Below are positions 1 through 64,000 of a DNA stretch of 64,000 bases, piece by piece. Location of the stretch: NCBI GenBank assembly GCA_023231475.1, contig JALJEE010002282.1:110833-174832 (forward strand), read 5' to 3'. Numbering within the stretch: position 1 is the first letter of the stretch; each line of letters begins with the position of its first letter. Made by a program: the position numbers and the translations under genes. A model generated the notes under the pieces. It did not search any database. It was given only the letters and a program-made list of their open reading frames with translations, and was not told the DNA's origin. Source of the stretch: Seison nebaliae (taxonomy: Eukaryota > Rotifera > Pararotatoria > Seisonacea > Seisonidae).

Positions 1-3000
1 TCTTCTTATCGGTTCCTCTTATCGGAAGTTGAGAGACCGAATATCGCCATAGGTAAAATTGAAGGGATCGATGCAGATGTGGAGGCTGAAGAACGACAAT
101 TAATCGAGACAACTCGACATCGATTCTCTCCGGAAATGTTTATGAATAAATTGAAATACAGTTTAATTTCGGTTCGTGGGAAATTTTATAAAAATAACGA
201 AATTTATTCCGTTCCGAAAATTGTGGGAAATAACAATAATTCTATATCGAATGAAGTGGCTATCGTGGGATTAAGAAGGAGACAAAGACATCGTTCTCTA
301 TCATCAATTTTCCATCTCAATCCAACAACCGGATTATTATCATTAAAAGAATCGATCGATCGTGAAATTGATGGAGATGAGATTCAGTTAAAAATCAATG
401 TTTTCGATGGTCTCTATCATGCTTATACCATTTGTACGATAGTGATAGTTGATGAGAATGATAATTCTCCAAAATTTCAAATATTAACACAAATCGAACA
501 ATCGACATCGGATCAATCGAAACGAGATAATAATGAAGATAATCAATTAACTATTCCAATTAATGTTAATGAATTGGCACCTCATGGAACATTTCTGACA
601 CGATTCCATTTGACTGATGAGGATAGTGAGGAGAGAGGTCAAACGATTTGTTGCGATATCGAATCTGATGTTCCCAATATCGTTCAATTGAGAATGTTAC
701 CAGATGCATCGATCGCTCTTATTACGAATTTGTCACCATTACCAATTCGTATGAATTCCACATACGATAAACAGAAACGATCAACTTCGCTTACAAACGA
801 TTATTATTATTATGGACGAGATAATGAAGATGAGATGAAATCGAATGGCCCAAATGAAAACGAGGAAATTTCTTTTGTTAATATCAGATTAACGGCGGAA
901 GATAATGCACCAAAATCAACGAGAAAGAGAACGGTGCAAAAGTTTCGTCTTCGAATTAAAGACGAAAATAATCATCGAGTTCAATTTAAGGGAGCTCAAG
1001 ATCAATTTATATTTTACGTGCAAGAAACGAATGAGAAAAACGGTAACCGTTTGAAAAATGTGGAGAATGCTCTCGGTAAATTGGAAGCGATCGATTTGAA
1101 AGATTTACCAGCAAATCGTCGTGTTGTTTATAAACTTTCATCAATTCTCTCTCAGAAAGATCGTCTTCCTTTATCATTCTCATTATTCCGAACATATTCA
1201 TCGGAATGTTATGATTCATATTCGTCTACTTTCCTTCATGACCTTCAATCGAACAAATATTTCAATAATTATTTCCTTACACCTCATCTCACTTTCAGTC
1301 ATAAGAGAAATCTATTGATAATGAAGAGTGAAGTGGATCGTGAAGAGATGGTGAGTGATATAAAGAAATTATTTCTCTTATATTTGAATACGATTGAATC
1401 GTTTCGAAATAGTCGAAAGAATAAGAATAAATTGGAATTATTGACGACTATTCTCGTCGAATCATTTTTTAAATCAAGTGAAATATCGAAACTTCTCAAA
1501 TTGACATCTCAATCTGTCATTTTAGGAAAGACGAGTAATATTCGCTCGATCTTATTACCGAGAATTGTATGGAAAGATCTCACTCCAACAATTCCCATAC
1601 TCGTTCGTGCATTGGATAGTAAATCATTTATTATGGAAGCGGAAATTATCGTGAGAGTAGTAGTGACTGATATTAATGATGTGGCTCCGAAATTCTTAAC
1701 AAATCAAACATTCTTCGAAGTCATTCCTGGTTATCAAGGTTATGTTGGTTCGATAAACGCGGTCGATAAAGATTCGGGAAATTTCCTTACGTACTATCTG
1801 GTGGATGTTGAACGAATTAATAATACGACGGAAACGGATGAAAGTCTTGTGAGATCACCAAGAAAGAAGAAGAAGAATTCACGTCGAACCATCAGAAAGA
1901 CGATGGATATCGATGTGGTAGAAGGAAGCAAATCATCCGATGTGAAAAAGGAAAAAATTTTCCAATCCGATTATTTCGATTATTTTAGTGTGGTGGCCAA
2001 CAACGGGCAAATATATACTACGTCCAGTCTCCTTTTAGGAAATGAAGAATTCCGTTTATCTATCGCCGTTACTGATGGAACTTTCACCACCACAACATCA
2101 GCCACTATTTACGTTCTTAATCATACGATGGCGAGTGATTGGCGTGCACCATCGTCAATGAATAATCGCCATGATTTCCAGAATTCTTATGATCCAAATT
2201 CGATGTATCATCGAAATCGATTAACGAAGAACGCCTTCAAACAATATTGGTTAATGAAATTGAATGATATTTTATCAAAACCGAAAATTGTTTATGGTGT
2301 GGGAGCGAGTCTTTTTATTCTATTGATCATCGCTATCATAATAACGGCGCTTGTTCGTCGATTTAAGAAACGACAAGTTCATCGTTCCGATAGAAGAGGA
2401 ACGAGATCGAATAATTCGAAATTAGACAAACATCATGATAAAGCGTCATATTCTCCCCTACTTGTACATCCGACAACATTTAGGAATTCAAATACTGAAT
2501 CGGAAACATTCTCCGACGACGTGACGCATTCGAATGAGAGGAAATTAGTCGATAAATTATTTGCAATTGATGAGAATTCAACAATTTGTACTTCACCTAC
2601 TCATTCAGGCAATTCGTACAGTTAGACGAGATTTTTTCATTTAATTTTTTCAATTTATTCTTATTAGACGGCAAATCAACCATTCAACGATTGAATGATA
2701 TCAGGAAATCAGATATCAATCGTCAAAGTGTGGAAAGTGGATCTTATGATGATCCGAATGATTCGCTCAATAGTGCCACTGTTCGCACAGGTCTCAGTAA
2801 CAACGGAAATTATGATATGGGCTCAGATAATTCAGAACCGACATGGCCCTTCGCCTACTCGACATTATCAACGACAGTGAAACCAAGTTACTGTCGAAAC
2901 GAAGTGAACAATTCAGGAATGTTCAAATCTCAAAATGATCTAACTACTCCAATCAATAAGATATATCGATATCAACAAAGGCAATCACCCAACAAACTCA

Positions 3001-3065
3001 TCAATCATTCACCTATGATAGTAACAAACGGACACACCATAAATGATAATGTCGATTATGTATAG
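1..3065 (+). CDS. Cadherin/protocadherin-type adhesion receptor, 3' part
   Basis: The frame is open from base 1, so the 5' end lies outside the window. Exons: <1-2620 and 2668-3065, about 1005 residues seen; the 47-bp intron (gttaga...ttag) restores frame past a stop at 2623. Cadherin calcium motifs are clear: DENDNSPKF (about 443-470) and DINDVAPKF (about 1668-1694), plus LKESIDRE-type linkers. One membrane helix lies at about 2288-2357 (VYGVGASLFILLIIAIIITA), followed by a roughly 215-residue basic then Ser/Asn-rich cytoplasmic tail ending VDYV. The family mediates calcium-dependent cell adhesion; no catenin-binding domain is recognisable, so a protocadherin-like role is likelier than a classical one. 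Several repeats are degenerate and carry Lys/Arg-rich inserts. The subfamily is not identifiable. Confidence 0.88.
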
Positions 3066-7629: not shown

Positions 7630-8454
7630 ATGAAAACCGGACTTATGATTCAGAAAGATGATACGTTGAATTGTGGTGAGTGCAAACGAAGTTTCCCCTT
7701 GCGAGATATAACTCTCTTCTTTCAACATAAAATCGAACAATGCCAAGAGAACAGTCCCGTCGACGAAGATATCGAGGATACGGTGAAGAGTTGTATTTTG
7801 GCTTGTTCGAAATGTGAAAAAAAATTCCGTGACGCTCGTCGTTTATTGGAACATATTGAGTATCATCACCATCAAAATATTTTTATTGATATATGTTGTC
7901 CCGAGAAGACGAAACATAGTCCGTCGACATTATGTTGTGGGAAAATTGAAATAGATGACGAAGAAAATTCGAATGATATTAGTCAAACGAGTAATGGAAT
8001 AAGTTTGATAGAGAAGAATCAGTTGAAGATGAATGAGAAAGATGTGAAACAGAATATTAAACGATTCCAATGTGATAAATGTGAATATGAAGCATTCCAA
8101 CGGATCCATCTCAGGAAACATATTTCAACGAAACATACGAATTGTTTTACTAAATTATGTTTCTTCCAATTATCATTTCTTTTCAGCCAAACCTTACAAA
8201 TGTACCAATTGTCCTTATTCGACGGTAGAGAAGAGTCATTTACGTGTTCATTATCGTATACATACAGGTATAGATCATTCTTTCTTTCTCCTTCTACAGT
8301 CCATCTATAGGTGAACGTCCATTTAAATGCAATTATTGTCAATATCGAAGCGCTCAAAATGGAGCACTGAAAGTTCATTTTTACCTTAATTCATTTCAAT
8401 CATTCTTTCTCCATTCAGAGTCATGTTAAACGGAAACATAAGGAAAAATTTTGA
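7630..8454 (+). CDS. C2H2 zinc-finger protein, 230 aa
   Basis: Four exons: 7630-8143, 8187-8267, 8311-8372, 8419-8454 (the last only 36 nt); 693 nt. Residues 15-40 hold a degenerate Cys pair with a distant His, about 58-80 a C2H2 finger, 147-169 a finger, then two tandem fingers at about 174-197 and 202-225. The TGERPF linker between the last two is the classic DNA-binding linker, and the final finger is completed only after splicing (ALKSHVKRKH). Such proteins bind DNA in the nucleus, here probably as a regulator. The terminal fingers recall REST/ZFP64-like proteins, but this is too short to name. No repression domain is visible. Confidence 0.82.
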
Positions 8455-8756: not shown

Positions 8757-11327
8757 TTATTCCATCCATGGCGAATAATCGAATGGTTTCATTCTTGCAC
8801 AACGTATCACTTTGTGTCTGTTCATTAAATAGTTGAGTTTAAAAAGAATCAGTGAGGGGACTACTAACCCCGAGTCAGGAAGACGAAATGCTTTGGGTTG
8901 AATTTCTCTCATATTTTCTATGACATCACATAAAATCCTCGATAAGGATGTTTGTCTGATCGATGTCAATTGATCTAAATAATTTTAAAATTAAAAATTT
9001 CAAAAATTCAAAAATTGAACTTCGGGAAAATGCTCCAGGGTGTATAGTCGGCGAATTTTCGTACCAATAACGATCTCCTCTTTTTAAGCGATCGAATTGT
9101 TCGGCCAACAGACAACCAAATGTTATTCCAACGATACCATTCTTTCTCGGTTTCTCACCAAAACCACCAGTAACCAGATCGATATCATTAACATTTCTAC
9201 ATTAATCCATTTCACAGATGATGAATAATAAAAGAGTATATCCAACTTAAACAACGACTTCCATTTACTGATGGTTTCAGACGAAATTGTTACAAAATTA
9301 TTCTGCTTCAAGTCATCAAATGAATTTATAGTTTCCGTACGACCAAATATCATTTTCATACATCTCTTCCTCCAAAACACATAAGATTGAGCTCCAAAAT
9401 CTCTTGTTCTCAATATGTCTAAAGAAGTTAAATCTTGTGCACTTGTAACTTTTCCATCTGAAAAATAGAAAATAAAGAATTAAGTGAATTTTTTAAAATT
9501 TAAATTAAACTTTGATCTGTTCGTTGAAATAAACGTGAATGAATAGCAATTGGAACTTCGTTATTCATTCGAGATGCAGCATCAGCAATCATACCATGAG
9601 TATATCCGGAAATGCCACCACCATTCTTTTCACTAGAATGAAAAATTTAGATATAAATAAATTAATGTGAAAGATGAACTCGAATAATCCTTCCGAATTA
9701 AAATAATTCGCTCTCAATTCCTCAGTTTTCAATATTTTATATTTATCGTCTCTTATTGAAATTGTGTCACGAATTTGTGCATGACCAAAACGAAAAGCCA
9801 AATTAAATTCGACGGCTAATCTTGGATCAATATTCGAATCATAACCACTGAAGAATCCGTTATCCAAATAAGATTTTTGTGATGTCTCTTTCGCCTCCCA
9901 ATCGGACAAATGACGGAAACTGTATAAATTGAAACTTTCCATCAACTCGTCTCCGATAGCGACAGAAAGATATTCGTTATAAATGACATGTTGAAATTCC
10001 GATATGGCGATATGTCGTGCTTCCTATCGTTCTAATGGTTAGAATGATAAAATGAGTACAGTTAACGGAAACTTCAAATATTCGTTCGTCTTCCCAAGAA
10101 GGATTTATTGCTGATAAAATTCGAGCACGTTCGTTATGTAATCTCATGAAAATTGTATGAGTTATCATCAATAATTTATTCTCGTTGACACGAGGATCTC
10201 CCGCACGGAAACATTTCACTTTAGAATTGAAAGGACAATTGATTGAATTTGGAAGAAAATCTAATTGACGAAATTGATCACCATTCGTCACTTCCAATAA
10301 GCCTAAAATAATTTTCAATAAATTTGAATTATCTCTCATAAAATCAACCGTTCTTAAACGATCTCAACAAAGCCATTTCTTCCCTAGAATTACCATAGAC
10401 TGTTGAAAGATCTATCCAAGAATTCGGTCCATTAATCGGTGTACGAAAACCAGGACATTCGTCCGATGTTGTGAAAGTTTTCTTTCTCGTTTGTTTTAGA
10501 CATTCAGTGATGTTACTCAACCATTTATCATCCTCACTAATCGAAATACTTTGACACATACCTTCTTGTCTCTTCGAACAAGGACATGCTAAAAATGAAA
10601 AAATTTCCACAAATATTATGAAATAAAAATCATTGTATAAATTCCTGAACATAATTTAAGTTCATCATCCGAAAAATTCGTTTAAATTTCAAATTATTAA
10701 ATTATTGTATATTATATTGTTATATTTGTTAAATTAAATTGCGAATTTATTGTTGAAAATTATTAATACGAACATGCTGATTCACTACCGCTAGCTTGTG
10801 TGAGATCGTGACTAAGAAATTGTCCAAAAACCATATGAAAATGATTAACTATTTTACTTTTAGTTAAGACTGTGGGACGATTGGGATTTGGAGGAACGTT
10901 GAATGACTCTAAAGTTATTTTCCTGATATTGGGTAAGTCACCACCATTCTCAGACTTTTTATGCTCAGTCGATCTACCTGGAATATACATGTGGAAAATG
11001 ATTATAATGTCAAAGTAGAATGAAAAAAACTTGACTCATAATTAACTTTGGCTAGTCGTAACATCGGCGATTTTCTTACTCCCCACCATTTATGATTAAT
11101 ATTATTGCACACACCTAATAGAGTACGAAACTTCGATCGAGTGGAACATTCGGAAGTTGCCGAAATAGCATCTCCAAGATCGTAATCACATGGTTCCGTA
11201 TTTCTGTTAGAAAAAACGGATTTTGAAAATTGAAAAAATTATTTATTTTTAACTCAGTTCTCAAATCAATTGCGAATAGTTGAGAGAGATTGATGAAAAG
11301 GAATATAGAAAATCTAAGAATTTCCAT
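8757..11327 (-). CDS. Secreted animal haem peroxidase (chorion peroxidase-like)
   Basis: Ten exons in transcript order: 11254-11327, 11031-11203, 10774-10977, 10349-10588, 10073-10302, 9680-10023, 9511-9632, 9247-9457, 9021-9196, 8757-8974; 1992 nt, 663 aa. Residues 1-20 are a signal peptide. Landmarks: RTLLGVCNN, GQFLSHDL with distal His139, WIDLSTVYGN, DPRVNE (Arg268 and Glu271, matching Arg239/Glu242 of myeloperoxidase), FRFGHA with proximal His388, and LKRGDRYWYEN. The Asp preceding the distal His in most family members, one of the residues that bonds covalently to haem, is Ser138 here. The family oxidises substrates with hydrogen peroxide and can crosslink eggshell or cuticle proteins. 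All nine introns start GTT; the largest is 185 bp. Confidence 0.93.
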
Positions 11328-15739: not shown

Positions 15740-17134
15740 TCAGCTTAATTCTTCAAATGGAATCCAATCTCTCGGATTATTTAACACCTCTTGAATCTTC
15801 TTCTCATCAAATCTCAATTTATGTTTATACGTCCATTTCTACATAATCATATTATCAGTCATTTATATTGGTATCAAAACTAAGAAGAACTAACAGCAAC
15901 AGCAGGCATTGAAACTAGAATACTTTCGATTTGAGCGTTTGGTGTATGTAAACCGAACTTCGTTCCACGATCATGAATCAAATTAAACTCGACATATCTC
16001 AAATTAAAAATTATAAATAATTCATTTCAACAATCTCTAACTTCCCCCGTCGAAACAATTGCCAATCACGTTCTTTCAATCCATATCCATCAAAACGATG
16101 TCGATCTACTATCGGGAAATAACTCTCCTTAATCGAATCACCACACATCTAAAACAATTATCATCAAAACGGTCAAACGAGTGATTAAAAGTAATAAAAT
16201 TTAATAGAAATAGAACTTTGACGAATCTGAAACATTTTTCGGAATCGTCATTTTCATTAAGATCATCAAAAAATATTCCGCCAATTCCACGATGTTCATT
16301 ACGATGTTTATTAAAGAAATATGTATCACACCATTTTTTAAATTTCTCGTAATAACGATCGTCGGCATAACCACAAGTCTTCTTTAAAACTTTATGAAAA
16401 TGAATGCAATCCTGAAAATCATTTAATATTTAAAATGGATTTAAAATAACTTTCTCATTCAAAAAATATGGTGTCATATCCGTCCCTCCACCGAACCACC
16501 AATGTTTCTTTCCGTCACTTTGTTCCAATTCGAAATATCGATAATTGAAATGAAGGGTCGGAACATAAGGATTTCTCTATGAATGATTGAAGAAATTTGA
16601 TTGATGGTAGATGAAAAATAACTGGATGAATGACTGAACTAATTCCTGTGGCGAAGAATTTTGATGGTTCATCCAAAATATCAGATCGTCGTGATTTAAT
16701 TTGACGGACAGCTTCTTTCGGTAATATTCCTTGTATAACTGATACATTCACTCCACCACGTTCCCAAGTTTGACCATCTTCAATTACACAAGTTACACCA
16801 CCACCACCCTCATCGATTTGTCGTTGCCATTCGTCGACGACGAAAAATTTCTCATCTTCATATTCCTCCATTTTATTACATATCTCTCGTTGTAATTGGA
16901 GAATATATTTCTGCATTTTATATTTCATTGACGACTTGTCATATTTCATAATCATCGAATCGCCGTGCATAAAATGAGCATATGGTACGGAACCATAAGT
17001 GGTGGTCGATTGACTTTTAGCATGAACAACACTGGTAGTGGTGGCAATCGCTGTCACTCCACCACTACAATTAAAAAATTGATTTTAAATAAGAGGAATA
17101 AAATTAACATTAATATCTTCCAACAATATTTCAT
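15740..17134 (-). CDS. CPOX: Coproporphyrinogen III oxidase (oxygen-dependent)
   Basis: Seven exons: 17109-17134 (26 nt), 16623-17064, 16451-16576, 16217-16411, 16042-16148, 15895-15997, 15740-15838; 1098 nt, 365 aa. It converts coproporphyrinogen III to protoporphyrinogen IX by oxidative decarboxylation, an oxygen-dependent late step of haem synthesis, in the mitochondrial intermembrane space. Conserved stretches are all present: [59 protein letters not shown] and the C-terminal NPRDW. The first 40 residues are hydrophobic then Ser/Thr-rich, consistent with a targeting sequence; the 26-nt first exon provides the ATG and fits in phase 2. All six introns start GTT. Confidence 0.94.
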
Positions 17135-23613: not shown

Positions 23614-24679
23614 TTAAACATTTAATTTTCTATTAATCCATTGAATATACGGACTAACTTTCGCATAAACACCACCATCCGAACATTTATAACCCCAGTT
23701 CACTATACCAATCATCTCCCATCTCGCCACTAAACTGTAACGATTTTTACAGATCAAACTCGCTCCAGAATCTCCTACAAACAGGAAAAAAATTTCAAAT
23801 AATTTTAATGAGAATTAAAAAACCGTTACATGAATCACCGAAATCACTGTTGTTCCCACCACCACAAAATTCCAAGGAATGTTGAAAATTATAAAATTTT
23901 CCTGCACATTCACTTTGTCTGTACAAGTTTAACTGAACTTCGTGCGGTCGATCAGGAAATTGTAAATCTAAAATTTTTATTGAAATTTCAAAAAATTTCT
24001 CTAACTATAAAAACGACTAAACTATTTGTGTAACCCCAACCAGGTTGCATGCAAATACGGTTGTTTTGACGTCTTGCTACAGCTACGGAAGCGCCATTCG
24101 GTAAACATGGTGGTCTGATGATATAACCGAAATTTTTGATTTTTCTCTAAAAATTTAATTTTTTAAAATTAAATTTTTATTTTTAAAAACTTTCAATTTC
24201 ACTAATACAATGTCGTTGAAATGTTTATACGGATTGTGACCGTCTGGTATATGGAATGAATCGACTTCTTCTCCATTTTCATAAAATGGTCCGATTGTTT
24301 CCGATAAATTATCGACGTTCATATAAACTCGATAATCACTCAAATTCCATTTTGGGTCATAAGAAAAACAATGTCCTGCCGTTATAAAATGTTGATCAGT
24401 GATGATGGTACCAGTACAATGTGTAACATTATTCATTTTTATTAGAACCTTAATAATTTTATTAAAGAATAATTGGAAATTTGAAAAGAAAACCATCCAC
24501 GGATAAACTTTACCGGATATTTCATTACCATTAATCACACGTGAAGTAGCTACATAATTCTGTACTCCACAAAACTTCTGATATTGATAAACGGTTTTAT
24601 AGACGTTAAATCGGAAACAATCAATATTTAGAAGGAGAATAATAAACAAGAAGGTGATAGAGGGAAGATTGGACTTCAT
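23614..24679 (-). CDS. Secreted trypsin-like S1 serine protease
   Basis: Five exons: 24494-24679, 24191-24448, 24023-24146, 23824-23967, 23614-23774; 873 nt, 290 aa. A signal peptide (SITFLFIILLLNIDC) is followed by a short propeptide, RVINGNE at the activation site, TAGHC (His88), NDIVLVKL (Asp141) and DSCNGDSGA (Ser240), so the triad is complete. Asp234 sits where trypsin has its specificity Asp189, predicting cleavage after Lys/Arg. The usual GDSGG is GDSGA here. The canonical DSCNGDSG is recovered only by using the donor AACG|gttttt; the nearer GTAACG donor would create a stop. It starts at the Met of MKSNL because that opens the signal peptide; a longer open frame upstream adds 31 residues without a signal. 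Confidence 0.9.
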
Positions 24680-25981: not shown

Positions 25982-26534
25982 GTTTCGTCTTTGAAAAAAT
26001 TTGGTTGAAATTAATCTCTCTAATTTTCTCTGTTGAAAACTTATATAGTCGAAGAAATTTTTAAAAATAAACGTGCGATCTCCTTCTGCAATACTGAAAT
26101 ATTCACTTTCGTAAACTTTCTGACATTTAAAAAGAATTTGAACAGAATCTGTATTTAATCATAAATCCCACTCACTACATGTCAACAAAATATAATCTTC
26201 CAATTCAAATATGTAAACTTCACTAGATAAATCTGTAAATGTTGATATCGAAAATGTGGATGAAATGCAATCTAAAAAAACTCGCGGTTTTTCAAAATTT
26301 GAACGAAATGCAAAATTCTTCTTTTAACCAATCATTTTGGATTCTATTCCTTTTGAATAACAAAAAAATATCTTAATAAAAATATTATAAATTTTAAGTT
26401 TCATTAAATATTTTAATAGAATTTTAAAAAATTATCGTTTTATCGAATTAATTTTATCCCTAATTTAAATACAATCTCAATGTAAGAATTAGAAATGTTG
26501 TCATTAATATTCCCAATTCATCACGTGCTTTCAT
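25982..26534. other. Intergenic
   Basis: AT-rich; holds the 5' side of the zinc-finger gene and the tRNA-Ser upstream region. No gene or repeat seen. Confidence 0.4.
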
Positions 26535-26616
26535 GACGAGGTGGCCGAGTGGTTAAGGCGTTGGACTGCTAATCCAATGGGCTCTGCCCGCGTGGGTTCG
26601 AATCCCATCCTCGTCG
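26535..26616 (+). tRNA. trnS-GCU: tRNA-Ser (anticodon GCT)
   Basis: 82-nt gene. The acceptor GACGAGG pairs with CCTCGTC, with discriminator G. The A box is TGGCCGAGTGG, and the anticodon arm is TTGGA-CTGCTAA-TCCAA with anticodon GCT at 26568-26570. A long variable arm is as expected for serine, and the B box is GGTTCGAATCC. No intron. It decodes AGC/AGU codons. Confidence 0.97.
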
Positions 26617-26623
26617 AATATCA

Positions 26624-27007: not shown

Positions 27008-28705
27008 ATGGGAATAGCAAAAGGAAGAACGCAAGGTTCGACGTCGATGAAGAAGAAAGTTTATGAGAGTCTCGATTTGAAAGATGAAAGATTTAAGAAA
27101 CTAACAAAAAAATTAGTTGATGTTGCATTTGATAAGACAAAATATCGAGTGTATACTGAAGACGATTCGAAAGGTGATCGGACGATATTCAAGGCAGTTC
27201 TCAATAAAGTTATTTTTTTATTATTATATTTTTGTCTTAAATTATTATTTAAATTAGACGAGTAAAAACGAAAATAATCTTTGCACAATCCAATTGTTGG
27301 AAGATAATGAAGAAAATTATTATTTTGGTCATCGATGGGGCAGAGAAGATGCGAGAGGTAGAACTTCATTTATTAAATTCGAGAAGAAATTGGCAGCAGC
27401 GAAAAAACATTTTTTCAGCAAGTTATTTTTTTCTATTTCATTTATTTGTTCAATTTCTTAAAATTAGATTAAATGAATTGACGAAGAATGAGTCGTTGAA
27501 GGATGTGAAGGATAATCCAGGTAAATATTATGTGATCGATATCGATATGGATTCGTTGATGGTACCGGAGGAAAATAAAACCGTTTCTGTTCCTGAAAGT
27601 AAATTACCTGAAGAAATTCAAGATTTGATGAAAACGATCTGTAACATTGGACCGTTTACGAAAGTGATGAAAAAGAACAAATTAAATCGAGAACTATTAT
27701 CATTGGGAATGTTGAGTGAAGAACAAATCTTGAAAGGATATCAAGTATTGAAGAAAATCGGTAATAAATTATCGCAAAATAATAGCGATTCCTTCGTAAC
27801 ATTAACATCTGCTTTCTACTCGTACATTCCTCATTATTTTTCAACTAGTCGACCGATCATCATTGATAATCAGAAGAAATTGAAAGTGGAAACGGATTTA
27901 TTAAAAGTTCTTTACGACTACAATTGTGTTGATAGAATGTTGAAGAAAGATGTGACTGGTGTCTTTAATCCAATTCAACGGAATTATGAACAGATCGGAT
28001 GTAAAATTAAGGTGGTTGATGATGAATCGGATGTTTATGAAGTTTATTCTTTTTTTTTCTTATTCTAATTTTAATCTGTTCGTGAAGATTTTGCAAAATT
28101 ATTTAGAATTAAATCATTCACATATCCATTCAGATTATCGAATGGAACTAGAAGAGATTTATGAAATCGATAGAAATGAAGAATTCGTTTCAAAAGGAAA
28201 TCTCCAATTATTATGGCACGGCTCTAAATTGAGTAATATTGCGAGTATTTTAGGAAATGGATTAACACTCCCTCCGGAAGAAGTCTCCAATTTCGGTTCG
28301 ATGTTCGATAGCGGAATTTATTTCGCTGATGTTTCCAGTAAGAGTGCCAATTACAGTATGGATGAAGACGATATCGGTTTCTTAATACTCGCTCAAGTGT
28401 CATTGGGAAAAGTATATGAAACATATGGACCTGATAATAATGCCAGTAGCACAGTGGAGAAAAATAAATGTGATTCTTTACGAGCTATTGGGAAACTATC
28501 ACCAAATAAATCGAGTCATTCTAAAATTATATTTGGTAAGACTGAAGTAACAGTTCCAATTGGTAAATGTGAGGAAATTACACAGGCTGATGATTGTATA
28601 TTAAGACATAATGAATATGTTGTTTACGATGAGAGTCAAGTATGTATTCGTTTTTTGATGAAAGTGAAATACATTAACAATACCGTTACAACATCTGAAG
28701 AATGA
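27008..28705 (+). CDS. Poly(ADP-ribose) polymerase with WGR domain (PARP2/3 class)
   Basis: Exons 27008-27208, 27258-27421, 27468-28041, 28088-28705; 1557 nt, 518 aa. Order: a short basic N-terminus, WGR domain (GHRWGREDARGR, about residues 90-101), helical regulatory domain, then the catalytic domain. The H-Y-E triad is intact: LWHGS (His357), GIYFAD (Tyr391) and NEYVVYD (Glu489). It uses NAD to add ADP-ribose to proteins at DNA breaks in the nucleus. It lacks the zinc fingers and BRCT of PARP1, so it belongs with PARP2 or PARP3; Glu489 predicts polymer-forming chemistry. All three introns start GTT and are 46-49 bp. Confidence 0.94.
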
Positions 28706-29204
28706 TATTGTTGAATTGAATAATGATTTATCAATTTTTTAAAATTTCATTTGATCCAAAATCAAATTCGTTCTTAAATTCAAATTTTTCTTTCTTTTTT
28801 TTTTGTGGTTTTCAATTTTCTTATGTCATTTGACAATATCCGTTTTTTGAATATTTTTCTAAAATTTTTTTATTATTGTCTATTGACAATGTCCGTTTTT
28901 TGAATATTTTTCTAAAATTTTTTTATTATTGTCTTTTATGTCCTATTGTCCATTCGTGTTTTGTTTGTGAAAGAATAAAAAATTCTTAATATGTATATAT
29001 GTGGAAATGGAGACAAAGAACTGGAAAAAACTTAATCGGATAAATTGAATGGAAGATTAAAATAATTTTAATAATCAAAAAAAAAGAATAATTTATTTCA
29101 TAATTTTTCAATTTTTTCCAAAATTTTTCCCTTCGAATAATGAGAATGTAATTGATCCAGATTTGACCTAACAAAGAGAATGATGAAATTTGATGAGAAT
29201 GAAA
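28706..29204. other. Spacer between convergent PARP and IARS1
   Basis: Holds both 3' ends and a 53-bp tandem duplication (separate entry). No gene seen. Confidence 0.5.
28831..28934. repeat. 53-bp direct tandem duplication
   Basis: Two adjacent copies begin 'tgacaatatccg' (28831) and 'tgacaatgtccg' (28884); apart from that a/g change they are essentially identical through the T-rich core to 'tattattgtct'. The near-identity implies a recent event. Confidence 0.85.
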
Positions 29205-32200
29205 TTAAGAAAATACTACTTTGACAGTATCCTTAATAATTTGACGATTATTGATGTCTTCTTTGGTAAATTGTTTATTTATACCGTGGACTATGAAATC
29301 ATATGTTTTCTCGATGACATCATTCAAATAATCGTCATCGGTTGAATATTTCACAATAATATCATCAGTAGATGTCAATTTTGCCTATTGGAAGAAAAGT
29401 GAAAATAAAGTTGTAAAATATGAAAATTTACTGCCAATCTCAATTTTTGAATTCGATTAATAATTTCTTTAGCGACACCTTCGAGAATTGAAGTTTCATC
29501 TTGACTGATATCGAGTAATACGATAACATTATTTTGTACTTTAGCAACTAATTGACCGAATTCTAAAAGGAGAACAATAAAAGAATTTTCCTTTAGTGTT
29601 TCATCAAGTGTTTCCCCTAACCAGAACATTGGTGGCAATTATAGAATATTCGAATATCTTCCAATAACAATCGATAAATTTCTTTGTCAGAAATTATCAG
29701 ATCGAAATGTCCATCATTTTGAAGTTGACGAATTTGTTCATCTGTCATCTTCTCGATGAGTGGAGTGAATTCTTTCAATTTCTGCTTGATTTTACTACCT
29801 AATACTTTGTAATCAGCTTTGGCATTTAATGTTATTTTATATTTATTCTGATTAGTTGTCACTTTTAATTGACGGATATTTAATTCGCTTTTAATTGCTG
29901 ATACAATTTGAGAATAATAAGGAACATTCCATTTGATAGAGAATATATCCTCCAAAATTACAACCATTTGACTCAAAGGATACTACGAAATTAATTAATT
30001 AATTCGATAATTAGAAGTAATAATGAAACTTTGAGAGGTAAATTATTATTATCTCGAAGATATCGTCCACATTCGATAATAGTTTGCATAGTAGACACAG
30101 ATCTCTCAATTTTCAAATTGAAATATTTCTTACTAAAAGAAAAATTGAAGATATGATAAAAGAAAGTGAACTCTAATTTCGGAATTAATAGATAATGAAT
30201 CGAATCCACATTTAACGATTTCTCAGTTATAAATTTGCGAAGTATCTGATAAATGTGTTCGGTAAGGAATGGAATAAATGGTGCCAATAATCGACACAAT
30301 GTCAATAAGACGTCGAATAACGAATGAATGGAACAGAGTGCTTCATATTTTCCATCTTCTCCCTGAAAAAATAAAAATTGAGAATTGGATTATTTTTTGA
30401 TAGATTAAAATTTCCAACTTTAATTCGTTTTCTCGAAAGACGAACATACCAATTACATAAAATATCGATCACTTTCACTAATGACGGTGTTACCATATAT
30501 AATTTATATGCTGAAAATAAATGACATGTGAAGGAATTTGGAGAGGAAAACAAAAAAAAAAAAACCGTTCATTTTCTCCGTAACGTCAGCTAAGAGTGAT
30601 TGGACGTAAGATAATATCCAAACATCCAAAAAATTTTCCGTTCGATATTCATTTTTATGATCATATTGATAAATCACTTTATCTTCCTATTGTCATTAAG
30701 AAATGAAATTGACTGGAAATGAAACGGAAAAAAAAACTTTTTCTAATCGTTGAATATTTTGAATGAGGAATCTGAGTGAACTATACATGGGAATGAAAAC
30801 ATCTTTCAAGACGTCTTGAACTCCTTTTTGCTGGAATTTCAATGCATCTCCATGTGCTGCTGGTGAAGTGATCAAATATAATCGAATTGCATCAGCTCCG
30901 AAATTATTCACAACTTTGATGGGATCAGGAAAATTTTGTTTACTCTTCGACATTTTCTCTCCTTTCTCGTTCAAAACGATTCCATTACAAACGAGATTTT
31001 TGAATGGTGCCGTATCATAAATTGCCGTTGAGATGATTATGAGAGTATAGAACCATCCACGTGTCTGATCGATTCCTTCGGCAATGAAATTTGCAGGAAA
31101 TGTTTGTTCAAATAATTCTTTTTGTTCGAAAGGAAAATGTTTTTGAGCGAATGGCATCGAACCTGATTCGAACCAACAATCGAAAACTTCAGGAATTCGT
31201 TTCAATTTTCCTTTTCCTAATTTAGATGGAATTGTTATATGATCAATTTTATCAGAATGTAAATCTGTGATATTCTTCTCTCCAGATAATTCTTCCAATT
31301 GTTTAATGGAACCGATACAAACGACTTCTTCACCATCATCTGATATCCATATGGGAATTGGATTACCCCAATATCGATTTCTGGAGAAAGCCCAATCTCT
31401 CGCATTCTTCAACCAATTGCCGAAACGTTTCTCTTTAACAAAATCAGGAACCCAATATGTTTCACTCGTATTTTTCAATAATCGATCAATCAACAATTCC
31501 ACACGAATGAACCAACTTTTGACCGCCTTGTATAAAAGAGGAGTATTCGATCTCCAACAAAATGGATAGTCATGTACACATTCTTCAATCTTAAATACTC
31601 GTCCTTCTCCTTTTAAATAACGAAGAATTTTCTTATCAGCTTCTTTCACATATTCACCTTTGAAATGAGAAACTTCATGAGTGAAACATCCTTTCTCATC
31701 TACTGGACAAATGACATCGCCCTCTTTACAAATGATATTATATAAGAGACAAACTCGATGATCATCTTCTCCAAAAAATGGTGCTTGATGTACAATACCA
31801 GTACCACTATCATCAGTCACATATGAATCACAATTAATTCTAAATGCTCTTTCTTTCATCTTTTCATAAAAATAATTAAATAAAGGTTTATATTTCTTTC
31901 CTTCCAAATCTTTCCCAATCATCTTCTTCACAATTTCATAATCATCTTCATCTTTGAACATTTCACTAACTCGATTCTCCATTATAATATATTTCTTTGT
32001 CGTTTTCTTATCTTGAATGAGAATATATGTCGATGTGGGATTGAGACAAAGAGCCAAATTTGACGGTAATGTCCACGGAGTTGTTGTCCAAGCAACTAAT
32101 TCCACATCCATTTCCTCCATTAATGGAAATGTGATAATAACAGCTGGATCTCTAACTTTCCGATAATTTTGTTGTGCTTCAAAATTCGATAAAGGAGTTG

Positions 32201-35138: not shown

Positions 35139-36124
35139 TTAAATAAGAATTGCGTTAGTATTCGAAGACGATTGTTTCGTTGATTCGACACTTTTATTTC
35201 GATTCTTCTTCTTCAAAGGACTCAAAGGAGATTTCTTCTTTTTCTTCAGTGGAGTCTTTCCATTTCGATTCTCTCCAAGTAAATGTTCGGTGGATCGAGC
35301 ATTGCCATGTTCTAAAGAGATTTTATTCATTTTATTATTATTGAGGAGTTGAGGCGTTTGTTGATATAAACCGTTGAATTTACCGATATCAACTGAATTG
35401 TTAATTTCTTGGTAAATGTGTGAGGTAGTTGGAAATTGATTTGGATTAATTGATGTGATATATTGTTGTTGTTGTTGTTGCTGTGATTGAAGTTGATGAT
35501 GTTGTTGTTGTTGTTGTTGGTTAATTTCCATTGGAACGGTTTGAATTAATTGTAAATGAGTTCGATCTGAATTTTCCGATTGTTCATTTGATGCAGATGA
35601 CGGAGTTGCCAATACGATAAAATGACCATGTTGTTTTGATTGTAGATCATTTGTCATTTCTTTGTTTTGTTGAATTGTTGAGGTGGTAAATGGGAAATCT
35701 TTCATTTTTTTCGATGCAGCAGTTGATGAGGTGGAAGAAGATGATAAGAGACAACTTTCATCAGTCAATAATCCAGATTCACCACTCGCTCCACTATGAG
35801 TATCTCCACCAGTCGAATGAAATTCTTCATTTCTGTCGATGGTAGAAGTTTGAATATTGATCGTTTTCTGCTGATTAACTGGTACTCGGAAGAGTGTTGC
35901 TAAATTATTATGATTCTGATTATTTTGGAATTGTTCAGTAGGAACGAACAATTGTTGTTGATAAATGGATGCTGATGGAACGATCATCATTTTCGTTCCA
36001 TCATTATTCGATGGAATTGCAATGGCATTCAATGGTCCATTACTCTGACTATGAACGATGAGACCTAAAGTATTACTATTATTATTATTCTTATTAAATT
36101 GAGAGTTTTCATTACTCATATAAA

Positions 36125-36176
<52 letters not shown>

Positions 36177-39026: not shown

Positions 39027-42000
39027 TTTCTCTCGAACAATTTTTGTTTCTTGTCACGAAATTTTCTTTACTTACAAATTGTGTCAGTTAAAAGAAGAGA
39101 ATCTCATGGTAAGTTATCACCAGATGTTCCATATAAATATGGAATGTATAAAATGTGAGAATGTGCTTCTATTCGGTTTTATGAGAAAGCTTTTCCACTT
39201 TCTGGTAAAATGTGGATAAATCTGTGAGAAACAAAAGAATCAGAGAAGAATTAATATTAGAGAAGGATGGAGAATGTTCATGTTGAATCAATTGGGAAAC
39301 ATTGAGAATAATCCATAAATTAGAAGGAATTATAATAAATATTTGTTTTTCTTCCATCTCTGATGTTCATTTGACTTGAATGAAAAGTTGGAATTAGATT
39401 CCATTTGGAAGAAATGAGATGAGAAAAAAGTTGAAATTGAATCTCATTTAAATGATGCAGCGATTAGAATAAACAAAAGGAAAGATTTTTTTCGAATTTG
39501 ACAATTAGATAAATAAAGAAACAATGAGACGAAGGTATTATTTGTTCAATATGAGAATGAAGGTAATGATGATGTCGGTGAAAGATGAGTGAATCCATTC
39601 AACTGATTCTTATCTTGCTTATTAAGAAATGAAAGAAAAGAATTGACTTGAAGTGATGGGAAGAATGATGATGAATTAACATCATCTCTTATCGCCTTTC
39701 CGTCATCTTTAAGCGCTGAGAAAACATTCGTTACCGACCCGACGGAAAGAGGAATTATTAGAACGACGAGAATAATCAGTTCTCTTCACGAATGGAGAAG
39801 AAAGAAAAGAGAATATTTTCGTGGAGAAGAATAATTGAGAGAGAAAAGAATAAAGTTAAAATGTCGGTAACGCCAATCCGGCTATCCGTTTTTACACCTT
39901 TCCTATAATTAGGGATGGAAGAAAATGTCGGAAATCAACATCGCCGAAATATTAATGATGAAGACACGACACCATCATGACATGATTGCGTCTCGTGCAA
40001 AATCAGATATACAAGAAATCCAACGGACTGTCAATCAAAACAAATAATTAACACTGAATCCGATTAGCTTCCTTGACGAGTGCAACAAGAACAAGAGCAA
40101 CTGACCAATGTCCATTGTAGTTTTATTTAATAGAATTCAATAAATTTTTCGTTGATGGAAAGATCATATAAAACGGATAATTATTTTTCTCAATTTTTCT
40201 TTAATATCTTTCACATCAGTCACGCATCAGAAACTTCATAAATCGATTAGTACATCCCTTTGACTTTTCCTCTAACTAGTTAGTTACTTAGCAGCTGAGC
40301 TAGTTAGGGACAAATGTGGAAAGATTGCAAATTTCCCCACTCATCACCAATTGTTTGTCGAGTTGACTGTGTTTAGAGGTGAGAGACATGAATGAAGAGA
40401 ATCCTTATAAACTGAAAATGAACTAAAAGTAAACCGAATTCAACATCAGTCAAGTCTCATCTATTGTTCTACTATTTATCGACGACTTAACAGCCGCAAT
40501 GATGTGCTAAATTAATCAGAAATTCTTGCATATATGAATTAGTAAACACCATTTCTCCTAATTTCACACTCATATATGAAGGCGCCAACAAATGATAAGC
40601 TGTCCATTGACCAGTTCATTCTCTAACTCACATGGCAACCAGAAACGGCAATAACATTAGAAATCTCCGAAAATTGATCATTTTCAGTTTCATAAATAAA
40701 GGACATCGTCTTACATTCTAGTTCAACATTATTTGACCAGTCCCTCAACATCATTATCGTTTGATGTGACTTGTGTATAGTTAAAGTGAATATGATTTCC
40801 GTTCTCCAATAATTTAATCGGCATGATATTTATGTGAGAAATGGAAAGTAAATGTGGAGACGAAATTTAATTTGGAGACGGAAATAAAAACTGTTTATAA
40901 ATAGGACTATTGAAAGAAAGGAAGAAACGTCTGTCGCACAATTTGTTAAAGGAACTGCCTCGGGTCGAACCGAAAATTAATCTTGTCAATACTTTCTTGG
41001 AGACACTTTAATTGCCTATTAGGTCAATTTAATCAATTGAAGAGGAGGAATTGATTGGAAACGAAAGATGGTAGAAAAGCAATTGTGGAGAAGCAAAGAA
41101 TAATGTTTGCAGAAAATCTTTCCATCTAATCAATTTTCCACTTGGATGAACGACACATACACACTTGTCTATTGGAATTTTAGGTGTCGACAGTATCATT
41201 TACTCACGTTCATCTTATCTAACAGATTAATTACGCGATGATATCTTTATCAGATAATTTAATAATGATGTAATCGATTAAGTATCGATAACTCATCATG
41301 CCTCTAATTCCATCAATTTCTTCCACATCTGTTACTTCTAATGGAATGGAAAAGTTTCGACAGGTATATTTCTCCGGAAAATTCTCTGAAATCCATTTTC
41401 GAATTAGTTTAAATAATTCGGAAAGTTCGAATGTGAAAAAAGATGCAAATATCAATGGAATAAGTTTCGTGAATTGTTTATAGGAAAAGAAGAATGATTT
41501 ACATAATAGAAATGAATATTAAAGAATTGACTCTTTCACTGAGAATGAGTTAATACGATTTGAATAGTTTTCTTGATAAGAATCTAATCTTTCAAACTCT
41601 GTTTTGACATAGTCTTTCCAGTTGTTGAAATAACGTTCTTAGGAAAACATTCCAAATAGAATTAGTATGGTAAATCCTTCGTCAATAAATATGCATAAAT
41701 TAATTTGTATATACAAAACATATTGGACATTTGATTAGGAAGATAAATTTTCACGATCCGGTCAACAGGAAACATTAACTCGTTTATATTATCCTCATTA
41801 GCATAAGTCGAGTTTGACCTGATTGAGGAGGAAAATTGAAAAAGAGTTTTGAAGTGGCGAAGAAGATAAATAATTGTTGGACTTCGGTCAAAGCCAAATG
41901 AAAAATTATGAGAATCATTTTTTGGTCAATCTCGATCGATTTAAATAAAAAAGATTTGATAGACACGTGTGGAGCAGGTTAGCACGATGGTAAGGTGCAA

Positions 42001-60508: not shown

Positions 60509-61342
60509 TTACATTGTCGTGCGACCCATTGAAGGGCGACCGGTAGGCATACCGTATGGTCTGGTTTGACCACCTAAAGATACAGCCGTCTGTCCACCAA
60601 AAGCAAATGGTCCTCCGAATGGTCTACCAGTTTGTCCCCCATAAGGTCTACCAGTTTGTCCTCCATAAGGTCTACCAGTTTGTCCTCCATAAGGTCTGCC
60701 AGTTTGTCCTCCATACATTCTACTTGCAGGTCTAGTTTGTCCACCAAAAGGTCGACCAGTTTGTCCACCGAAGGGTCTACCAGTTGGTCTAAATTGACCA
60801 CCAGTTTGTCCACCGAATGGTCTACCAGTTGGTCTAAATTGACTACCAATTGGTCTCCCAAACGGTGCACCAGAAGGTCTGAATTGACCACCATTTTGTC
60901 CTCCAAAGGGTGCACCAGAAGGTCTGAATTGACCGCCATTTTGTCTTCCGAAAGGTGCACCAGAAGGTCTAAACTGACCACCGTTAGGTCTTGCAAAAGG
61001 TCTGTTTGACGCTAAAACTTGACCTCCATTTTGTCCACCGAATTGAGGTCGGAACCCATTACCAAATTGTCCTCCATAACTTGGAGTCGTTCTCATAGTT
61101 CTTTGGCCATTTAATAATTGTTGGAATTGGGAAAGCATACTTGGATTGCTTTGTAATTGATTCAACAGCCCCATTAAATCTAATGACTGTTGTGGTCGTT
61201 GATATTGCGATGGAGGTGGGGGACGACGTCCATAAGGAAAATTGCCATTAAAATCCTGACTATATCCTCCACCGAATTGTGAAGGATAGTTTTGGGCAAA
61301 AATAACCCCGACAATTGATAAAAGTATTATTCGGTTCAGCAT
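60509..61342 (-). CDS. Secreted Gly/Gln/Arg/Pro tandem-repeat protein, 277 aa
   Basis: Single exon with a clear signal peptide (MLNRIILLSIVGVIFAQ). Residues 17-85 are Gln/Pro-rich; the rest is built from repeats: four 16-17-residue units of the form GGQFRPSGAPFGRQN, then 8-residue units GGQTGRPY or GGQTGRPF, four to six of them in a row. DNA of adjacent units is nearly identical, so the array is young or homogenised. It has no cysteines. Composition suggests a structural extracellular protein (cuticle, glue, silk or eggshell) by analogy with other Gly-rich arthropod proteins; no named family. Several other frames stay open across the array merely because of the repeat. Confidence 0.85.
   Translation of the reverse strand: MLNRIILLSIVGVIFAQNYPSQFGGGYSQDFNGNFPYGRRPPPPSQYQRPQQSLDLMGLLNQLQSNPSMLSQFQQLLNGQRTMRTTPSYGGQFGNGFRPQFGGQNGGQVLASNRPFARPNGGQFRPSGAPFGRQNGGQFRPSGAPFGGQNGGQFRPSGAPFGRPIGSQFRPTGRPFGGQTGGQFRPTGRPFGGQTGRPFGGQTRPASRMYGGQTGRPYGGQTGRPYGGQTGRPYGGQTGRPFGGPFAFGGQTAVSLGGQTRPYGMPTGRPSMGRTTM
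60609..60720. repeat. 24-bp coding tandem array
   Basis: On the plus strand 'ggtctaccagtttgtcctcc' plus 'ataa' recurs at 24-bp spacing, encoding the GGQTGRPY units of the repeat protein. Confidence 0.9.
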
Positions 61343-61879
61343 GTTAATATTCTTAAATGTTACTCAATTATCTCGAGTTTTATACCCGAATATTGTTTTT
61401 CAGCATCTTCGTGTTAAACCTCTTTCAAATATATTCAAAACTTAAAAAATACTTTTTTTTATTAGTCGTTATTTACAGTTGTGTACGTCCAGGAGAAGTT
61501 TCTTCTTATATTTGATCTTTTGTGCAACTTCTGATATTCAGATCTCTCTTAATCATACATATTTTGCTAATATTAAACTTTTAAATCTTTCTTGAAACTC
61601 TTTCCGTAAAAACAACTTTCTACAACTTACATTAAGTTAAAATTCATAAGTTTATATTATAATAAATTTAACAAACGTAAAAGTTTTTTGAAATTTACAT
61701 ATACGAAATGTTTATTTATCCGATTACTTATTAGTAAATGATTATCATCATTTTTGTCATTACCCCTATTTTGTTCATTCTAGTTCTAGTTCTAGTTTTC
61801 ATTGTTCTAGTCATAAGATTTCCCTTAAATTTATTGTACCCATGAATATATAAATAACACTTTAAAGCACTTAGAATGT
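61343..61879. other. Intergenic
   Basis: Promoter side of the repeat-protein gene and upstream of tRNA-Pro. A short ttctag(ttctag)n tract occurs near 61779-61798. No gene seen. Confidence 0.4.
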
Positions 61880-61951
61880 GGCTTGATGGTCTAGTGGTAT
61901 GATTTTCGCTTTGGGTGCGAGAGGTCCCGGGTTCAATCCCCGGTCAAGCCC
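61880..61951 (+). tRNA. trnP-UGG: tRNA-Pro (anticodon TGG)
   Basis: 72-nt gene. The acceptor GGCTTGA pairs with TCAAGCC, with discriminator C. The D arm is GTCTAGTGGTATGAT, the anticodon arm TTCGC-TTTGGGT-GCGAG with anticodon TGG, and the T arm CCGGGTTCAATCCC(C)GG. It decodes CCA. No intron. Confidence 0.97.
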
Positions 61952-61956
61952 AAAAG

Positions 61957-61960
61957 TTTT
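61957..61960 (+). terminator. Pol III T4 after tRNA-Pro
   Basis: TTTT six bases past the tRNA end, the minimal pol III stop. Confidence 0.65.
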
Positions 61961-62103
61961 ATTCTGATAACAACGGAACTGTATATTTTTTCCAAAATTC
62001 GAAAATATTTTTCGCTAAGAAATGAATATTTGGAAATATTTTTTTTTATTGAGGATGAATCCCAGTTTGTTCAATTTTGAATGAATTCAAATAAAAAAAG
62101 GAA

Positions 62104-62442
62104 TTAAGACTTGAAATAATATGATGGCCCCGAGATACATATGTATGGAGAAAGAATATCGAGAACATGGTTATCGATTGAAAAATTAGATATTAAGGAT
62201 TCAGCATCTTCCACTGTGTTGAGAAGTGGAATCTCGTAATAGTAGCAGAAAAAGTAGACAGGATTCGTAAACAGCTCACACTGTTCGTAAGTCGGATATC
62301 GGAAGTCAGATAATTTTATGTTTTGGATGAGAGCAATAAACCTTTGCCCAACAAAAGAGGAAGAGCAGGAAGCCCGGTAATCGAGAACATAAAGGCACGA
62401 TGTTAATAATCTCATTATATCTTTATTCTTCATTAAATTCAT
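62104..62442 (-). CDS. Candidate small protein, 112 aa, unrecognised
   Basis: An open frame of 113 codons; an internal Met (MKNKDIMRLLTS) near 62430 is a possible start. The part FRYPTYEQCELFTN and the end VLDILSPYICISGPSYYFK look protein-like with balanced composition, but there is no known domain. It lies head-to-head with the five-exon gene on the other strand, 55 bp from that gene's first visible exon. It could be the last exon of a larger minus-strand gene, or chance. Confidence 0.35.
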   Translation of the reverse strand: MNLMKNKDIMRLLTSCLYVLDYRASCSSSFVGQRFIALIQNIKLSDFRYPTYEQCELFTNPVYFFCYYYEIPLLNTVEDAESLISNFSIDNHVLDILSPYICISGPSYYFKS

Positions 62443-62497
62443 TTATCAGGATCAATGTTCTATTTTACCAATACGTAAATCTAAATAAAACATGCAG

Positions 62498-63397
62498 TAG
62501 CAGAAACTTCACCTTCTGTGAATGAAAATAACGCAACAAATATTCAACACTATATTAATTCACCGAATATCGACCCAGGATATTCATTATATTCTGTCGA
62601 TAAGTCGTTTGTGGAAGAAGTTTCCATCTATGAACTATTTTTTTGTTAACCAAACATTCTTACAGGTACTTTATGAAGTTTATAACAATGATGATGAAAT
62701 TGAAATGTCGTACAAGAAAGACCTACGAGATAGCATCCTAGTTTATGGCGGTAAGAACGGTAAAACATTCCAAAAACATAGTCATGAAAATAGGTGGATA
62801 ATAATGTTTAATTTCTGTTCTGTTCATGAAATTATATTATTTCTTTTCAATAAAATGGTAGTTGGCAGAATAAGCTGCAGGTACACTCGTACACATCTAG
62901 TATTGAAACTTTGTACTATCTATGCCATTTTGGTTGCGCTTGCCAAAACGGTTCTGATAAATTAACTATATTTTTGAGCGATATCAATATCCATTGTTTA
63001 TTTTATTAAAACTTGTGATATAATATTAAATCAGTTTCACATTGCAATAACTTCACCCAAATGAAAGAAGTGAAGAAGTATTACATTTATTATATGGAAA
63101 ATCAGTTAACAAATATTCCGTGCAATCGAACTTATTCTCATCAATCAATTATTAATGACAAGTATGGAATTCAATTCTTTCGAGATAAATCTCTAGTTTT
63201 ACTTCTCTCCTCCTTACATTTCATGTTTGGATTCTTTCTAGTTCAAATTGAAGGGCAATGAGAAAAATTTCGTAATGTATTTCTCCAAAGGTGAAGTACT
63301 CGATATATTGGATAACTTGGACTCAAACTATCCTAAATGGAGTGAAGATTTAGTTGAAGGAAAAGTTGTAAAATTTGAATTAGGGTTAAACTATTAA
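62498..63397 (+). CDS. Unrecognised five-exon gene, 5' end not found
   Basis: Exons 62498-62619, 62666-62793, 62862-62950, 63035-63195, 63242-63397. Four introns of 46, 68, 84 and 46 bp have GT-AG ends and concordant phases (0, 2, 1, 0); the exons join into 218 codons ending in TAA, although each is in a different raw frame. That makes chance unlikely. Readable parts: YSLYSVDKSFVEE, KKDLRDSILVYGGKNG, YYLCHFGCACQNG with a CxxxCxC cluster, and VMYFSKGEVLDILDNL. The first exon enters in phase 1 after 'catgcag' and contains no start, so at least one exon lies upstream. There is no membrane helix. I do not recognise a family. Confidence 0.6.
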
Positions 63398-64000
63398 ATT
63401 GATGTTTTCTGCTCAATATTTAATTGATCTAACTAATTAGGCAAACAAGTTCTATACTGCAGGTTGAGAATAATGGCATTTTAATGTATTGTTCCTTTCA
63501 CTATTCATACCGGAGAGTAAAATGTGCAAGTTATTTTCATTAATAATTTTAAAAAAAAGAAAAATTTTATTTTTAGTTTCAGGTGCTTTTCTGAATCTGT
63601 CATTTAATGGAGATTTGGAATGTATTGGTTAAACCCTATAAGTTTCATGATTAACATAATTTATGGTGATTATAATAATTGGCGACTACAAAAATTTTTT
63701 GGTGAAATAATTTATTTTCATTATAAACGAATTATTCGCAAATATATATTTGAGTTTTTCTTTCGAAATATGATGTAATTTCATCATTTTTATATTCTTT
63801 TAAATTATTACTTAATTATTAAATTCATTTCATCATCAATGGTGCATCTCAATAATTTTATATACTCCTCGTCAAAACTTTAAATACTATCATTTTGCAT
63901 TGGAAATTGAAAATTCAGGTTTATTTTTGTCAAAACTTTAAAAACAGACATAAATTGTATAAAATTAATGGTCATAAACGTTTCCTTTCTTTTCTAAAAC
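63398..64000. other. 3' flank, AT-rich
   Basis: No coding signal seen to the window end. Confidence 0.4.

Follow-up and report, generated by a model that had tools for sequence, protein, structure and literature searches.

In animals, the 5' splice sites (donors) of introns carry a purine at the third intron position (+3), and the 5' end of the U1 small nuclear RNA (snRNA) faces the donor in such a way that its position 6 lies opposite +3 and its position 9 opposite the last exon base (-1). This 5' end is, to our knowledge, nearly invariant in eukaryotes. The present work deals with the donors in a stretch of 64,000 nucleotides (nt) of the assembly of the marine rotifer Seison nebaliae (36,032,870 bases in 846 contigs), located at C29:110833-174832 and hereafter referred to in its entirety as the window, and with the U1 genes of the same assembly. 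A bias of the donors toward GTT, claimed for the window by an earlier reading of its letters (the original prediction), was confirmed as real and as reaching beyond the window, across the sample examined, and three of the four U1 genes found carry at position 6 the base complementary to T at +3.

The Seison system shares with the canonical metazoan one the U2-type introns with GT-AG ends, the U1 fold, the Sm site, and a U1 5' end facing the donor; what differs is T at +3 together with A at position 6 (A6) in three out of four U1 genes. A laboratory suppressor U1, reportedly made by Zhuang and Weiner in 1986 for one mutated site, likewise offsets a donor change by a change of a U1 base, whereas the Seison case is natural and concerns most of the introns examined. 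In the protist Entamoeba, the donor is GTTTGT, with T at +3 as in Seison.

Further systems are described in papers that are represented here by excerpts, and what is said of them, above all what they lack, holds for those excerpts. Unlike Seison, Entamoeba is reported to be devoid of U1 snRNA (PMC13292270). Human variant U1 snRNAs are paralogues existing beside the canonical U1, whose expression predominates, and the excerpt mentions no shift of donors across the genome (PMC13172311); in Seison, by contrast, variants account for three U1 genes out of four and fit the donor seen most often. The animal Fritillaria borealis resembles Seison in having a genome-wide change of its intron ends, which are non-canonical; its two U1 versions, unlike those of Seison, have identical 5' ends, and a U2AF duplication and changes in N6-methyladenosine (m6A) were proposed (PMC13326754). 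In yeasts, a lineage-wide shift of one donor position, comparable to that of Seison, is represented by switches between A and U at +4, which track METTL16; the U1, unlike in Seison, is unchanged, ACUUACC being invariant in the U1 candidates found (PMC10581693). The genome of the diplonemid protist S. specki, like that of Seison, contains two kinds of U1, one canonical and one altered (C stretch); the complementarity of the altered U1 to the logo of canonical donors is comparable, and, unlike in Seison, it does not match a shifted consensus base (PMC12621601). The U1 of Giardia retains ACUUAC (PMC3510501). None of the studies on Fritillaria, yeasts, and Giardia found a U1 change that compensates for the donors, the altered diplonemid U1 coming closest to an exception. 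In its excerpt, the Seison genome paper contains "intron" twice and "splic" once, in connection with gene length and homeobox gene prediction and not with donor sequence (PMC8351084). The open-licence papers searched describe neither GTT donors in rotifers nor an animal U1 whose 5' end changed along with the donors of its genome, which does not prove their absence. As far as these searches reach, the principle of U1–donor pairing is known, and its natural re-addressing in an animal would be new.

Donor Sequences in the Window and Beyond

Introns were predicted with a gene finder of our own, consisting of a coding Markov model plus introns, in which the donor is scored as GT only. The sample comprised 261,833 base pairs (bp), i.e., the window, contig C796, and 10 kb from each of contigs C647 and C208 (0.26 of 36 Mb); A+T amounts to about 68%, and T comes next after GT at 39.7% of the 22,791 GT sites of this DNA. 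With acceptor and length learned and the donor beyond GT left unscored, 180 introns were obtained, having at +3 153 T, 13 A, 9 C, and 5 G. T occupies +3 in 122/135 short introns (66 nt or less; about 90%), the probability of at least so many, given the background, being 7e-35; the corresponding fractions are 4/6 for introns of 67–130 nt and 27/39 for those above 130 nt. In the window alone, the finder placed 43 introns, 36 of which show T at +3, and the short ones comprise 30 with T and five with A (n = 35); GTT donors predominate among these 43 introns, as had been claimed for the 68 originally counted.

The predicted lengths are bimodal, 135/180 introns measuring between 39 and 66 nt and 39/180 more than 130 nt. 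In the long ones, T at +3 is weaker and misplacement is likelier, too.

When nothing but GT was required of the donor and nothing but AG of the acceptor, T was obtained at +3 in 34/39 introns of a first run; expectation maximization (EM) ended with 79/83 from a flat start and with 71/74 when it was started from the ordinary GTRAGT motif. The retrained flat setting gave 101/123, 72/81, and 51/55 under three intron penalties. In a comparison with decoy donors, T followed GT in 118/132 introns (0.89), and the fractions after the other dinucleotides were 0.05 (GC), 0.19 (GG), 0.28 (GA), 0.43 (CT), 0.45 (TT), and 0.54 (AT), the bias thus being confined to GT. The TT and AT decoys gave 128 and 115 "introns", indicating that the finder alone places borders loosely; when any dinucleotide was allowed as donor, GT was the commonest, starting 38/163 introns (TT 32, AT 20), and 36 of these 38 were GTT. 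On contig C208, where two of the U1 genes described below are located, 9/12 predicted donors are GTT, some of the models being low-scoring, and 12 further loci (33,005 bp) yielded just two introns, both GTT, too few to count.

A second set of introns was placed by deposited S. nebaliae proteins. The IARS1 protein built by hand from the window is SNEBB_004598 (100% identity over all 1082 residues), and predictions on contig C796 match SNEBB_005121 (transportin, TNPO1; 89% over 100%) and SNEBB_005120 (cullin-1, CUL1; 92% over 100%); these three and a PARP2-like prediction of the window align to solved chains of the proteins concerned (for the latter, PARP2 chains). On the DNA, the deposited IARS1, TNPO1, and CUL1 have 8, 10, and 10 introns, respectively. 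When GT-AG ends were demanded, a single solution existed for each gene, with 28/28 introns being GT-AG and removed in frame, and a mapping that made no demand on the intron ends gave identical intron lengths. Here, +3 is T in 25 introns and A in three. Where U2-type donors (GTRAGT) have a purine, T was thus found both in 25/28 protein-placed introns and in 122/135 short ones.

The finder and the deposited models differ at several exons. In IARS1, introns 1–3 were fused by the finder into one of 375 nt and the last intron was set 3 nt off, both errors being mended by the deposited protein; in CUL1, one intron was left as coding, where it forms an insert with respect to human cullin-1, and it is a GTT intron in the deposited model. 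The proteins named in the original prediction as forcing GTT placements gave concordant results: GTT was recovered by the finder in the serine protease, CPOX, and zinc-finger genes, and by translation in IFT22, a gene missed by the finder, whose P-loop exon reads GPKE and then GTT in the translated frames. In IARS1, six of the eight donors are GTT and two are GTA according to the deposited protein.

As regards the consensus beyond +3, the exon side of the 135 short introns has A at -3 in 47%, at -2 in 55%, and at -1 in 59% of cases (G at -1, 20%), and the intron side has T at +3 in 90%, A or T at +4 in 39% and 38%, A at +5 in 42% (G 17%), and T at +6 in 55%. Apart from GT itself, the strongest donor signal is thus found at +3, and the exon ends in AA, not AG. 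The absence of a clear G at +5, already pointed out from the window, was found again; the last exon bases, described as lacking the usual AG preference, are not neutral, given the prevalence of A at both -1 and -2. Two other readings of the consensus were considered: a T-rich intron start was rejected, T reaching 38% at +4 and 28% at +5, and U12-type introns were set aside as improbable, since the consensus donor, in which GTT is followed by A or T, differs from RTATCC. As to the U11 snRNA, no match at E 0.001 was present in the assembly, and the control genomes gave none either.

U1 Genes and Their Fit to the Donors

In the RNA and protein-domain searches of the contigs, the best candidates were scored, so that the match counts given here and below are lower bounds; for the Rfam U1 model (RF00003), 41/293 candidates were scored. 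Four U1 loci were retrieved (U1a to U1d, Table 1), with bit scores of 112.9, 112.4, 108.0, and 97.4, all above the gathering score of 69.5. The Rfam consensus starts with AUACUUACCUG, as does U1a, which keeps U at position 6. In U1b, U1c, and U1d, hereafter the A6 genes, the 5' end is AUACUAACYUG, position 6 being changed from U to A, and U1d shows in addition a change from C to U at position 9; the canonical ACUUACC is present in one gene out of four, the other three having ACUAACC or ACUAACU. A search of the genome for the U1 start pattern with up to three mismatches gave the known four at zero mismatches and three more at three, the reversed control giving 15 matches, and no fifth U1-like start emerged from it. 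Since the pairwise identity among the four is 62–67%, they are paralogues rather than alleles.

In the four-helix U1 fold, 92% of cells are paired and 16/41 pairs are altered on both sides, a value reached in 0/500 shuffles, the structure having been drawn from the same alignment, which favors the covariation result; with the partners slid, one to six pairs changed on both sides were counted. An Sm-site-like element, AATTT, occupies the same place in all four genes (test motif AAUUUNU before the last stem-loop), and the U1A-binding loop is AUUGCAC in the three A6 genes and AGAGCAC in U1a. The 3' box AATTAATTAAACTTT, with U1b as the reference, recurs with one to three mismatches after U1c, U1d, U2a, U2b, and U5 (background at most 0.009 each) and with four after U1a (background 0.064); the seven mismatches at U2c and the five at U6 correspond to no box. 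With this poorer box and its AGAGCAC loop, U1a, the sole U1 with a canonical end, may have a special role. Upstream of the genes, TCACACTTTC, chosen by eye post hoc, occurs with at most one mismatch in U1a, U1d, U2a, and U5 and is two off in U2c, U2b having too little upstream sequence; being three or four off in U1b and U1c, it was not counted in favor of the A6 genes. A common element of 10 bases upstream of the snRNA genes was no better than in shuffles.

Over nine positions of the 135 short-intron donors, the mean number of Watson–Crick pairs is 4.07 for the canonical U1, 4.93 for A6, and 5.31 for A6 with U at position 9 (A6U9), the values at 4,466 exonic decoy GTs being 3.66, 3.80, and 3.90, respectively. 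When the 27 single changes of U1 are ranked by Watson–Crick gain, that from U to A at position 6 (U6A) is first (0.859) and that from C to U at position 9 (C9U) second (0.385), and these are the two seen in the genes; the chance that two random picks are the top two is 1/351, a rough guide only. By RNAduplex energy, the sole best U1 is A6U9 for 94 donors, A6 for 28, and the canonical U1 for five, with eight ties.

Other Splicing Components

U6 gave one match, in which the ACAGAGA box is kept, and U5 one match, with the loop GCCUUUUAC. All three U2 matches contain GUGUAGUA in the branch-site region. The third of them (C796:78598-78799, 78.7 bits) has several broken pairs and lacks a 3' box while keeping GUGUAGUA, and is possibly a pseudogene or a variant U2. 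The zf-U1 family (U1-C finger), which also matched 1/14 control genomes, gave one strong and one weaker match. The strong frame reads as in other animals; the weaker domain (C621:20526-20615, 33.6 bits) lies in an open frame of 397 codons, which perhaps encodes another U1-type zinc-finger splicing protein. LUC7 gave three matches at one locus, and the METTL16-family domain one match, which is not decisive, since the family also matches bacteria.

On this evidence, the U6 box, the U5 loop, and the U1-C finger appear ordinary, and the visible change lies in the U1 RNA. The comparison of U1 and U6 genes proposed in the original prediction thus opposes four U1 genes, three of them with the base complementary to T at +3, to an unchanged U6 box; judging from these sequences, the presence of A opposite +3 supports the altered pairing with U1 that had been suspected, and the alternative of a greater weight on U6 receives no support from the U6 sequence.

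Further Genes of the Window

The introns of other window genes are reported in Table 1 together with those of IARS1 and the U1 loci. In the haem peroxidase gene, the Pfam An_peroxidase domain falls on a neighboring exon. The window also contains a tRNA-Ser (gct) at 26534-26617 (+) and a tRNA-Pro (tgg) at 61880-61951 (+), an open frame at 35139-39053 (-) that spans 1304 codons in a single exon and includes leucine-rich repeats as well as long stretches of Asn and Gln, and, at 60509-61363 (-), a gene with a Gly/Arg/Pro-rich repeat that leaves long open frames in two other frames, too.

Table 1. Coordinates of U1 genes and introns (positions in the window unless a contig is given; a slash marks the exon–intron border).
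Feature	Position	Strand	5' end or donor	Length (nt)	Basis or remark
U1a	C208:6576-6739	+	AUACUUACCUG		canonical 5' end
U1b	C208:8280-8439	-	AUACUAACCUG
U1c	C647:4426-4585	-	AUACUAACCUG
U1d	C762:47440-47598	-	AUACUAACUUG
IARS1 intron 1	30687..30737	-	aaa/GTTTTT	51	deposited protein, single GT-AG solution
IARS1 intron 2	30511..30565	-	acg/GTTTTT	55	deposited protein
IARS1 intron 3	30363..30418	-	aaa/GTTGGA	56	deposited protein
IARS1 intron 4	30133..30171	-	aga/GTTCAC	39	deposited protein and donor-blind finder
IARS1 intron 5	29983..30029	-	aaa/GTTTCA	47	deposited protein and donor-blind finder
IARS1 intron 6	29563..29621	-	ctg/GTTAGG	59	deposited protein and donor-blind finder
IARS1 intron 7	29385..29431	-	gca/GTAAAT	47	A at +3; deposited protein and donor-blind finder
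IARS1 intron 8	29168..29219	-	aaa/GTAGTA	52	A at +3; deposited protein, finder 3 nt off
Zinc-finger gene intron	8373..8418	+	aaa/GTTCAT	46	donor-blind finder and translation
Haem peroxidase gene intron, one of ten predicted	9633..9679	-	cga/GTTCAT	47	donor-blind finder
CPOX intron after IHP	16577..16622	-	cca/GTTATT	46	donor-blind finder and translation
Serine protease intron in DSCNG/DSG	23775..23823	-	acg/GTTTTT	49	donor-blind finder and translation
PARP2-like gene	27209..28087	+	27209-27257 GTTATT; 27422-27467 GTTATT; 28042-28087 GTTTAT		three introns; donor-blind finder

Origin of the GTT Donors

It is likely, in our judgment, that U1 and the donor consensus co-evolved in the S. nebaliae lineage, the 5' splice-site code having been re-addressed via U6A. 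A U1 of the A6 type would pair its C8, A7, and A6 with GUU, and is predicted to be expressed and to bind GUU donors first; U1d could add a pairing of U9 with A at -1. The donor would next be handed over, in the manner usual for animals, to U6 and U5, whose parts contacting donor and exon are unchanged. Because little pairing is added outside GUU, recognition probably depends to a large extent on the definition of introns over 39–66 nt, the very short introns helping to define weakly paired donors, and U1a with its canonical end may serve the remaining GTA and GTG donors or another task. A more detailed version of the same idea, which is possible but on balance doubtful, is that several U1 small nuclear ribonucleoproteins (snRNPs) have different addresses, with the A6 U1s (one of them reading A at -1) serving the roughly 90% of introns that begin with GTT and the ancestral U1 serving the GTA/GTG minority or a separate task.

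Some observations weigh against co-evolution. With G-U pairs counted, U6G (0.852) ranks just above U6A (0.830) and C9U is third (0.585), and the canonical U1 is no better on donors (4.42) than on decoys (4.56). The mean duplex energies are weak, namely -2.43 (A6), -3.16 (A6U9), and -1.79 kcal/mol (canonical), and the 13 short donors devoid of T at +3 are not clearly better served by the canonical U1 (G at +5 in one, G at -1 in four). Moreover, one U1 gene retains the canonical 5' end, and the upstream element of U1d, U2a, and U5 is common to U1a and not to U1b and U1c.

A rival reading is a drift of the donors to GTT that did not involve U1, whose pairing would matter little, with recognition by U6, proteins, or the acceptor, and with the A6 genes as minor or dead copies. 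In its favor, outside +1 to +3 the pairing is weak, a canonical-end U1 is present, changes in the 5' end occur among human U1 paralogues (PMC13172311), and splicing in Entamoeba reportedly proceeds in the absence of U1 (PMC13292270). Such a drift is nevertheless unlikely. T at +3, being at 90% the strongest signal outside GT, is selected; the A6 genes keep the fold by compensatory change, the 3' box, and the U1A loop, whereas it is the canonical-end gene that is poorer (AGAGCAC, four mismatches in the box); and drift does not predict a change of U1 at the exact base facing +3. The same base speaks against the idea that another changed factor (a U1-associated protein, a modification of U6, or Prp8) favors GTT, the A6 of U1 being passive or serving another purpose. 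In yeasts, donor preference does track METTL16 with no change in the sequence of U1 or U6 (PMC10581693), and the factors checked were U1-C, LUC7, and the METTL16-family domain only, by domain search; however, the U1-C finger is of the usual kind, LUC7 is found at one locus, the METTL16-family domain is present, the U6 box is unchanged, and the U1 change by itself predicts the +3 base, which makes this explanation quite improbable.

It might finally be objected that introns were misplaced in A+T-rich DNA (A+T about 68%, T after 39.7% of GT sites) or that the assembly is mixed from several organisms. Some placements by the finder are indeed wrong, GT starts only 38/163 introns when any dinucleotide is allowed, and a pool of animals, in which two mitochondrial haplotypes occur, was the source of the published assembly (PMC8351084). 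An artefact is nonetheless very improbable, as mapping the three deposited proteins leads to identical introns with and without the demand for GT-AG ends, the decoy dinucleotides show no such bias, seeding with GTRAGT leads to the same result, and U1a and U1b share contig C208, where GTT donors prevail (9/12, some in low-scoring models). The co-evolution of U1 and donors is the reading retained here.

Conclusions

If 180 introns per 261,833 bp holds over 36 Mb, about 25,000 donors would be present. Gene-finding programs set for GTRAGT may go wrong in the Seison lineage. A natural animal case would make it possible to test how many donors and one snRNA change jointly, with a duplicated U1 perhaps acting as a bridge, as well as the limits of the code, i.e., the hand-over to U6, the contacts of U1-C, and the disappearance of a modified U from position 6. 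If it is true that several U1 snRNPs with different addresses coexist, Seison nebaliae would represent a natural re-coding of donors across an animal genome by compensatory U1 evolution, with labor divided among U1 paralogues.

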